A stretch of 64,000 nucleotides of DNA from Planomonospora sp. ID67723 (GTDB taxonomy: Bacteria > Actinomycetota > Actinomycetes > Streptosporangiales > Streptosporangiaceae): positions 930,001-994,000 of the forward strand of contig NZ_JABTEZ010000002.1 of the NCBI RefSeq assembly GCF_015711605.1, read 5' to 3'. How positions within the stretch are numbered: position 1 is the stretch's first letter; each line of letters opens with the position of its first letter. Shown one piece after another: positions 15,001 through 15,518 of the stretch. A model generated the notes under the pieces. That model was not told where the DNA came from. It searched no databases and saw only the letters and a program-made list of their open reading frames with translations. Made by a program: the position numbers and the translations under genes.

Positions 15001-15367
15001 CACCGAGGGAACGGCCGAGGTGCTGCGCCGCAACGGCGTCCATGCCAAGATCGTGCGCAAGCAGAGTGACGGAACGGGTCCGCAGGGAGAGCCGACGATC
15101 GGCCGGCGCATCCTGGACGGCGAGGTGGATCTCATCGTGAACACGCCCTTCGGCAGCCCCGGTCAGGCCGGGCCGCGCCTGGACGGCTACGAGATCCGCA
15201 CCGCGGCCGTGCTGCGGGGCATCCCCTGCATCACGACCGTTCAGGGACTCGCCGCGGCCGTCCAGGGCATTCAGGCCATCGTCCGAGGTGACATCGGCGT
15301 ACGGTCGCTCCAGGAGCACGCGGAGCGGCTGAGGCGAGGAGTGAGCGAAGCGGGCGGTGAAGGATGA
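12047..15367 (+). CDS. carB: Carbamoyl-phosphate synthase large subunit
   Basis: Makes carbamoyl phosphate for pyrimidines and arginine; 1106 residues with two homologous ATP-grasp halves and a C-terminal allosteric MGS-like domain. Signatures: [19 protein letters not shown] at the start, its second-half copy [20 protein letters not shown], and [17 protein letters not shown] at 12047 overlaps the carA stop (GTGCCTAA). The final residues [13 protein letters not shown] are identical to the end of the small ORF in the following repeat, so the natural C-terminus was replaced or extended by this element. Confidence 0.96.
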
Positions 15368-15500
15368 GCCGTCGGCGGAGTGAGCGAGGAGCCGAACGCG
15401 ACCATGGGCGGGAGCGGCTGAGGCGAGGAGTGAGCGAAGCGGGCGGTGAAGGATGAGCCGTCGGCGGAGTGAGCGAGGAGCCGAACGCGACCATCGGCAG
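15323..15500 (+). repeat. Tandem 89-bp repeat (two copies) at the carB end, MIRU-like
   Basis: Two nearly identical 89-base units (15323-15411 and 15412-15500) begin with GAGCGGCTGAGGCGAGGAG. The first covers the carB stop. Each unit contains GGATGAGCC, whose TGA ends one frame while its ATG opens the next. Because neighbouring frames overlap by four bases, a unit of 89 bases encodes a 31-codon frame (93 minus 4). This is the structure described for MIRU elements at operon junctions in mycobacteria. The second copy diverges only near its end. Confidence 0.85.
15364..15456 (+). CDS. 30-residue repeat-encoded mini-ORF after carB (unit 1)
   Basis: ATG at 15364 overlaps the carB TGA. The peptide begins [20 protein letters not shown] and ends [10 protein letters not shown], the same ending as CarB. 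It is strongly basic and has no recognised domain. Its TGA overlaps the ATG of the second unit. Probably a translational relay; function as a peptide is not supported. Confidence 0.45.
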
Positions 15501-15518
15501 GGGCAGTTGCGAGGCTGA
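15453..15518 (+). CDS. 21-residue repeat-encoded mini-ORF after carB (unit 2)
   Basis: Opens on the TGA of unit 1 and encodes [21 protein letters not shown]. The last seven residues differ from unit 1 because the second copy is truncated by divergence. It ends 48 bases before the pyrK start, so direct coupling to pyrK is lost. Confidence 0.4.
   Translation: MSRRRSERGAERDHRQGQLRG

Follow-up and report, generated by a model that had tools for sequence, protein, structure and literature searches.

We analysed a 64,000-nucleotide stretch of the genome of Planomonospora sp. ID67723 (contig NZ_JABTEZ010000002.1, positions 930,001 to 994,000; this whole stretch is called the window below), in which a tandem array of short repeat units lies at the 3′ end of carB. 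An earlier note on this DNA had described two 89-base units here, and these were recovered at 15322–15499. Tandem Repeats Finder reports the repeat at 15322–15498, with a period of 89, 2.0 copies and a 98% match. Because a 35-base core of the unit, present in 2 copies in the window, was found in 0 of 100 shuffles with up to 3 mismatches allowed, the pair is not a chance occurrence. The locus contains the following features (ORF, open reading frame).

12047–15367, + strand: carB, carbamoyl-phosphate synthase large subunit (NCBIfam match)
15322–15410, + strand: C-type unit 1, overlapping the carB 3′ end
15411–15499, + strand: C-type unit 2; by direct count, 87 of its 89 bases match unit 1
15364–15456, + strand: mini-ORF 1, 30 aa, opening on the carB stop (ATGA) and closing on the next ATGA (15453–15456)
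15453–15518, + strand: mini-ORF 2, 21 aa, opening on the mini-ORF 1 stop and closing at CTGA, with no overlapping start
15469–15570, + strand: alternative GTG frame, 33 aa, in unit 2, closing inside the GTGA start of pyrK
15526–15559, + strand: strong hairpin with a 14-bp stem, between the array and pyrK (fold z −2.64 for 15516–15570)
15567–16442, + strand: next gene, a pyrK-like dihydroorotate dehydrogenase electron-transfer subunit (all matches below curated cut-offs)

The TGA of carB sits within the ATGA at 15364–15367, inside unit 1, and the 30-aa frame that starts there closes on the ATGA of unit 2, both as had been claimed. Of the proposed nesting of ATGA frames, the relay from the carB stop through mini-ORF 1 to mini-ORF 2 stands, while the continuation beyond mini-ORF 2 does not. 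The alternative GTG frame was not reached from the carB stop by a chain search. These units are a variant, with the ATGA placed mid-unit, of one of two sequence groups of repeats (A/B and C) that we found dispersed over the genome.

Using two sequence-only models (R1, made with twelve A/B units; R2, made with four C units), we identified at least 41 A/B and at least 37 C matches in the window's own genome at E ≤ 0.1; these counts are lower bounds, with 150 of 21337 (R1) and 150 of 12150 (R2) first-look candidates scored. Below, G and L numbers denote the genomes and loci compared, G000 being the window genome. Rows dropped were, for R1, nine of eleven locus-less matches and L067 (C5:141712 and C2:101026 lie inside kept arrays) and, for R2, L096, L097 and seven locus-less matches; matches C5:15510, C1:23128 and C4:457242 stand outside the counts. 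We examined 35 arrays from this genome (18 A/B and 17 C), with units of about 68–91 bp. A co-oriented downstream gene was present at 34 of them by a wobble-GC rule, a candidate downstream start lay from 6 nt before to 4 nt after the modelled end at 27, and 16 held at least two matches, one of the matches being partial. Pfam gave names to 36 of the 40 flanking proteins tried, revealing arrays at nuoB/C, nuoD/E, nuoF/G, nuoG/H, aroB/aroQ, ABC-transporter pairs, phoH/ybeY and an acyl-CoA dehydrogenase pair, and next to genes for adenosine deaminase, Mur ligase, indole-glycerol-phosphate synthase, ATP synthase delta and a class-V aminotransferase. The suggestion of a family sitting at operon stop/start overlaps is thus borne out: relatives of the carB unit occur elsewhere in the genome, and not at random places. 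A core-motif pattern search served only for finding candidate loci and carries no weight of its own: the motif is almost the same in either direction (backwards control, 19 versus 20 matches).

A/B units read RTGAGYGAGCGNAGCGAGCGARYC...GAGGAGG N4 RTGA and often encode a peptide of the form MSERSERAxxxxx...PTEEA*. C units end in ...GYGARYGAGGAGYGGTGAGCGACC N RTGA, and many of them close with an extra 4-codon frame, GTG AGC GAC CNR TGA, that is linked at both ends. Among 65 distinct A/B frames (17 from the window genome and 48 from others, heads containing N being left out), 55 have their stop within an NTGA start, 10 remain open in frame for more than 60 codons and none is uncoupled; in the loci of the relatives, 31.3% of 2923 other RTGA starts are uncoupled. 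The 10 in-frame cases include L308, where a unit that is already in the count has a further start in a different frame, and L043, whose frame crosses tandem units and then closes in ATGA. Unit lengths follow the same phase: of at least 87 A-type units in other genomes (the listed rows spanning both ends of model R1), 74 have lengths of 0 mod 3, giving a −4 overlap, 13 are 1 mod 3 and stay in frame, and none is 2 mod 3. Since the final RTGA is part of R1 and most of the units behind the model were in phase, the weight is carried by A-type units of 75, 81 and 84 bp, which remain in phase.

For the C type, a pattern ending before the gene start was run over genome contigs and returned 87 stretches, 80 of them listed. 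The 80 listed loci hold 95 C-module matches, tandem and orthologous copies included, and in 64 of these an RTGA follows at exactly +1 base (control, 0.56%). Seventy named-genome arrays were counted, a further 10 near a locus edge being skipped; 68 of the 70 have a co-oriented downstream gene, and an unbroken −4/−1 chain leads from the upstream stop to the downstream gene in 51 of the 58 that have a co-oriented upstream gene. The claim that the element keeps translational coupling is therefore supported, at the level of phase, for the family (all 65 A/B frames in phase), while coupling would be only partial at the flagged carB locus, where the chain to pyrK is incomplete.

These phase data bear on the idea that the repeats act at the DNA or RNA level, as a protein-binding site, promoter or structured RNA, with the reading frame incidental. 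The head GAGYGAGCGNAGCGAGCGA is very conserved at the DNA level, and the excerpted text of PMC4213456 reports promoter activity for the senX3-regX3 intergenic region, which bears mycobacterial interspersed repetitive units (MIRUs). We consider this account improbable, as it does not fit the phase kept in 65/65 frames, nor the folding of seven units, which was no better than that of shuffles (z −1.36 to +1.02). The same folding result led us to reject the structured-RNA idea as far as the units are concerned; the one fold that stands out is the hairpin beyond the carB array. An added promoter role may be compatible with both the phase and the fold results. Codon-position variability in the SERSER head (mean 0.083, 0.044 and 0.138 at positions 1, 2 and 3) shows a pattern that is suggestive at best of coding, being carried mostly by two third positions.

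A second, cleaner tandem array lies in the window at 54700–54877, where 80-bp units separate ribBA and ribH and every link is an ATGA.

53500–54714, + strand: ribBA, bifunctional DHBP synthase / GTP cyclohydrolase II
54711–54790, + strand: 80-bp B-type unit 1, at the junction of ribBA and ribH
54711–54794, + strand: mini-ORF in B-type unit 1, 27 codons, joined upstream to ribBA and downstream to unit 2
54791–54870, + strand: B-type unit 2, 78/80 identical to unit 1
54791–54874, + strand: mini-ORF in B-type unit 2, 27 codons, linked to the ribH start at 54871
54871–55341, + strand: ribH, lumazine synthase

Comparison with related genomes revealed the same junctions with and without repeats. At nuoF/G, 5/5 spanning Microbispora loci are shorter by exactly 230 bp (81+81+68) and have a bare GTGA there; at nuoB/C, 4/4 relatives' loci are 79 bp shorter; and aroB/aroQ has a bare ATGA overlap in Nonomuraea basaltis (one Nonomuraea). 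In all three filled/empty pairs, RTGA stands on both sides of the insert. Microbispora has a C element of its own between the nuoE- and nuoF-matching stretches. Copy number also differs, at C1:2082986 (2 versus 3), C1:2195556 (4 versus 1), C1:1980348 (2 versus 1) and C6:89563 (1 versus 2). The earlier note had expected copy number and position to vary, and both do so between species, the level at which they were compared (at carB, nuoF/G, nuoB/C and other loci); the unit is neither confined to the carB site, nor invariant, nor placed at random.

Within a genome, units were 97.8–100% identical in the two arrays compared, while identity between two Planomonospora genomes was 88.8–92.6%. Such likeness, and the inclusion of the carB end in the carB unit, would be expected if each junction had merely doubled its own stop/start overlap by ordinary tandem duplication, with no dispersed element involved. 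However, the same sequence groups recur at many unrelated junctions in many genera, and not a single copy stands at the empty sites that were read. Local duplication as a full account is refuted by these two observations, and we regard it as very improbable; it is likely to be the way in which copy number rises within an array. Separately, the array at L274 (G001:C7:259386–259941) is long, with at least six A-type matches spaced 68 bp apart across 556 bp that include a run of N, and is a candidate for strain-level copy-number change.

How the repeats may have moved is a further question, on which a non-autonomous transposon resembling a miniature inverted-repeat transposable element (MITE), mobilized in trans by a host transposase, would be compatible with coupling. 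The filled/empty sites with RTGA on both sides resemble short target duplications, but no terminal inverted repeats were present in the six regions tested (four had no inverted pair and two had internal palindromes only), and we think a MITE-like origin rather unlikely.

We favour the reading that the carB array belongs to a family of coupling cassettes of about 68–91 bp, dispersed over the genome, that work like mycobacterial MIRUs, and we give it a probability of roughly 0.83. A typical cassette would occupy an RTGA site (a 4-nt stop/start overlap) or the start codon of a gene, and would bring its own RTGA start, a mini-ORF of about 20–30 codons, a Shine-Dalgarno-like GGAGG near its end and a new RTGA. 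We infer that a ribosome finishing the upstream gene re-initiates on the mini-ORF and next on the downstream gene. The filled and empty sites suggest that cassettes have moved as mobile units, and tandem copies would be born by duplication and kept alike within a genome.

The carB/pyrK junction was read in the 30 genomes with loci, out of 118 with a carB match. The element is present at 10 of the 30 junctions, with two units in G000, G001, G094, G006, G118 and G084 (the second G084 unit being shortened) and one unit, with or without a further partial copy, in G110, G068, G134 and G140. Sixteen junctions have an anchor gap of 6–43 nt, too short for a unit, and four with longer spacers (G090, G113, G093 and G002) were left unclassified, among which the G113 spacer gives a complete carB-to-pyrK chain. 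The site thus holds 2, 1 or 0 units depending on the species. In G006, CarB stops at the same place as in element-free relatives and the element begins there, while CarB extends into the element in G000, G001, G110, G068, G134 and G094. The claim that CarB ends in the peptide of the unit holds for the window genome: the 11-residue C-terminal tail of CarB derives from read-through into the element, past the former CarB stop.

Because the carB chain misses pyrK and element-free junctions are usually short gaps, the flagged copy is atypical: in G000 it is linked to carB, with an incomplete chain to pyrK. It would be a cassette captured when the carB stop was read through, and it is only partly coupled. 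Beside this, a related element lies at the carB end in G140, G118 and G084 (L134, L143 and L148), each time with an additional palindromic insert, and in L134 15-bp direct repeats of the carB-stop region (GGCTGAGGGACTGAG) flank both sides. In G082 (L147), the 43-nt carB/pyrK spacer has carB-stop-like direct repeats around a short stretch, and may be the remnant of a shrunken element. The hairpin at 15526–15559 is similar in G001, with changed bases, and absent from G110 (by eye); it could be a processing site or attenuator.

Several observations weigh against the coupling-cassette reading. At the flagged locus itself, a chain search found no carB-stop-to-pyrK chain in the window genome, the nesting stops short of the pyrK start at 15567, and a 48-nt gap with the hairpin separates the mini-ORF chain from pyrK. 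Of the 10 element-bearing carB/pyrK junctions, only G110 and G134 have a complete chain to pyrK, which fails in G000 and G001, and 15 of the 16 short junctions lack a −4 or −1 link (the exception, G075, has −4 with TTGA). More generally, 12 of the 70 named-genome arrays have no co-oriented upstream gene, and the C module's own TGA is used in only 32 of 58 chains. With stops so rare at such G+C, the controls on whole chains are weak: 30/34 chains observed against 18.8 (s.d. 2.3) in shuffles, and 39/45 against 27.9 (1-nt deletion) and 30.6 (2-nt deletion) in the frameshift control. Formal p-values overstate the case, given that R1 contains the final RTGA and was trained mostly on in-phase units, and same-genome units and orthologous junctions of related genera are not independent. 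The lack of terminal inverted repeats in the six regions also counts here.

Two degenerate copies lie near carA in the window.

11954–12028, + strand: degenerate copy of the C type that continues the carA frame at its C-terminus, where carA and carB overlap (G110 has an empty junction)
10798–10850, + strand: degenerate A-type copy, fused in frame at the carA start (absent in G094 and G006)

By the wobble-GC rule, no co-oriented gene lies upstream of some A/B copies, among them that at 10798–10850. At three A/B copies (L042, L051 and L058, around 1480–1510), the start lies 6–9 nt after a TAnnnT-like box by eye, as if the mini-ORF served as a leaderless operon start.

R1 detected the A/B type in 51 of the 120 family genomes and, at class level, in 23 of 296 (own genome included in both); the class hits extend to five other families, where matches were often head-only. 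One of these, L306 (G047), is an RTGA-to-RTGA A/B unit with the same MSERSER peptide, lying between ATGA and GTGA; the A/B group therefore extends past a single family, by greater age or by spread. A second match from another family, L305, did not fit the motif of the script. With R2, the C type was found in 11 of 60 relatives (own included); in the contig pattern scan, its hosts among the stretches listed (80 of 87) are the Streptosporangiales genera Streptosporangium, Nonomuraea, Planobispora, Planomonospora, Microbispora, Microtetraspora, Sphaerisporangium, Planotetraspora, Sinosporangium, Spongiactinospora, Actinoallomurus and Actinomadura. At E ≤ 1e-3, the C array had no plasmid match and the A array no plasmid or phage match.

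According to the excerpted text of PMC12548453, MIRUs are a feature of many mycobacteria; they are apparently mobile, occupy start codons and contain an ORF that is coupled through a −4 overlap. This behaviour we count in favour of a MIRU-like coupling role. Excerpts of two other papers give variable copy numbers with a unit size of about 40–100 bp (PMC2734929), and units of 77 and 53 bp (PMC4213456); these two lengths and the 68, 80 and 89 bp of the cassettes are all of the form 3k−4. Like MIRUs, the cassettes are short units dispersed over many sites of one genome, placed at start codons or RTGA overlaps with empty orthologous sites at nuoF/G, nuoB/C and aroB/aroQ, and their internal ORF sits on −4 overlaps (55/65, with 10 in frame), the downstream link being lacking at carB itself. 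In contrast to MIRUs, of which those at senX3-regX3 are confined to M. leprae and the M. tuberculosis complex in the part of PMC4213456 consulted, the cassettes are hosted by Streptosporangiales and further actinomycetes, form two sequence groups, have a 4-codon relay frame in C and show in-frame fusions to host proteins. By analogy, the cassettes would appear to work like MIRUs, and we do not file them as MIRUs: host range sets them apart, the sequences of the two not having been compared.

Termination-reinitiation at ATGA or TGATG is the logic of overlapping-gene coupling in the excerpted text of PMC6728339. The cassettes share this logic, with the overlaps coming from a dispersed repeat rather than from the two neighbouring genes. 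The cassettes are short and dispersed like MITEs and repetitive extragenic palindromic (REP)-type repeats, but lack terminal inverted repeats (six regions) and unusual folds (seven units), and are co-oriented with the next gene in 34/35 arrays. In the literature searched (best-ranked results, mostly without subscription papers), we found no description of such repeats outside mycobacteria, in line with the earlier suggestion of an undescribed family.

Tentatively, coupling cassettes may form a class of mobile DNA that is general among actinomycetes, with MIRUs as one lineage. Such a class would comprise at least two sequence groups that share one RTGA-in/RTGA-out grammar in one genome and across several families, enter −4 overlaps of core operons, and seed N- or C-terminal extensions when a chain collapses into one frame. 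The cassette family would show that MIRU-type elements are a recurring solution and not a mycobacterial peculiarity, and that selfish or neutral DNA could enter core operons (nuo, aro, pyr and rib) by bringing its own stop-to-start relay. The natural series, from one to at least six tandem relays, would offer a gauge of how many termination-reinitiation steps an operon tolerates, and the cassettes are possible strain-typing markers for actinomycetes and would also give rise to lineage-specific tails on proteins such as CarA and CarB.
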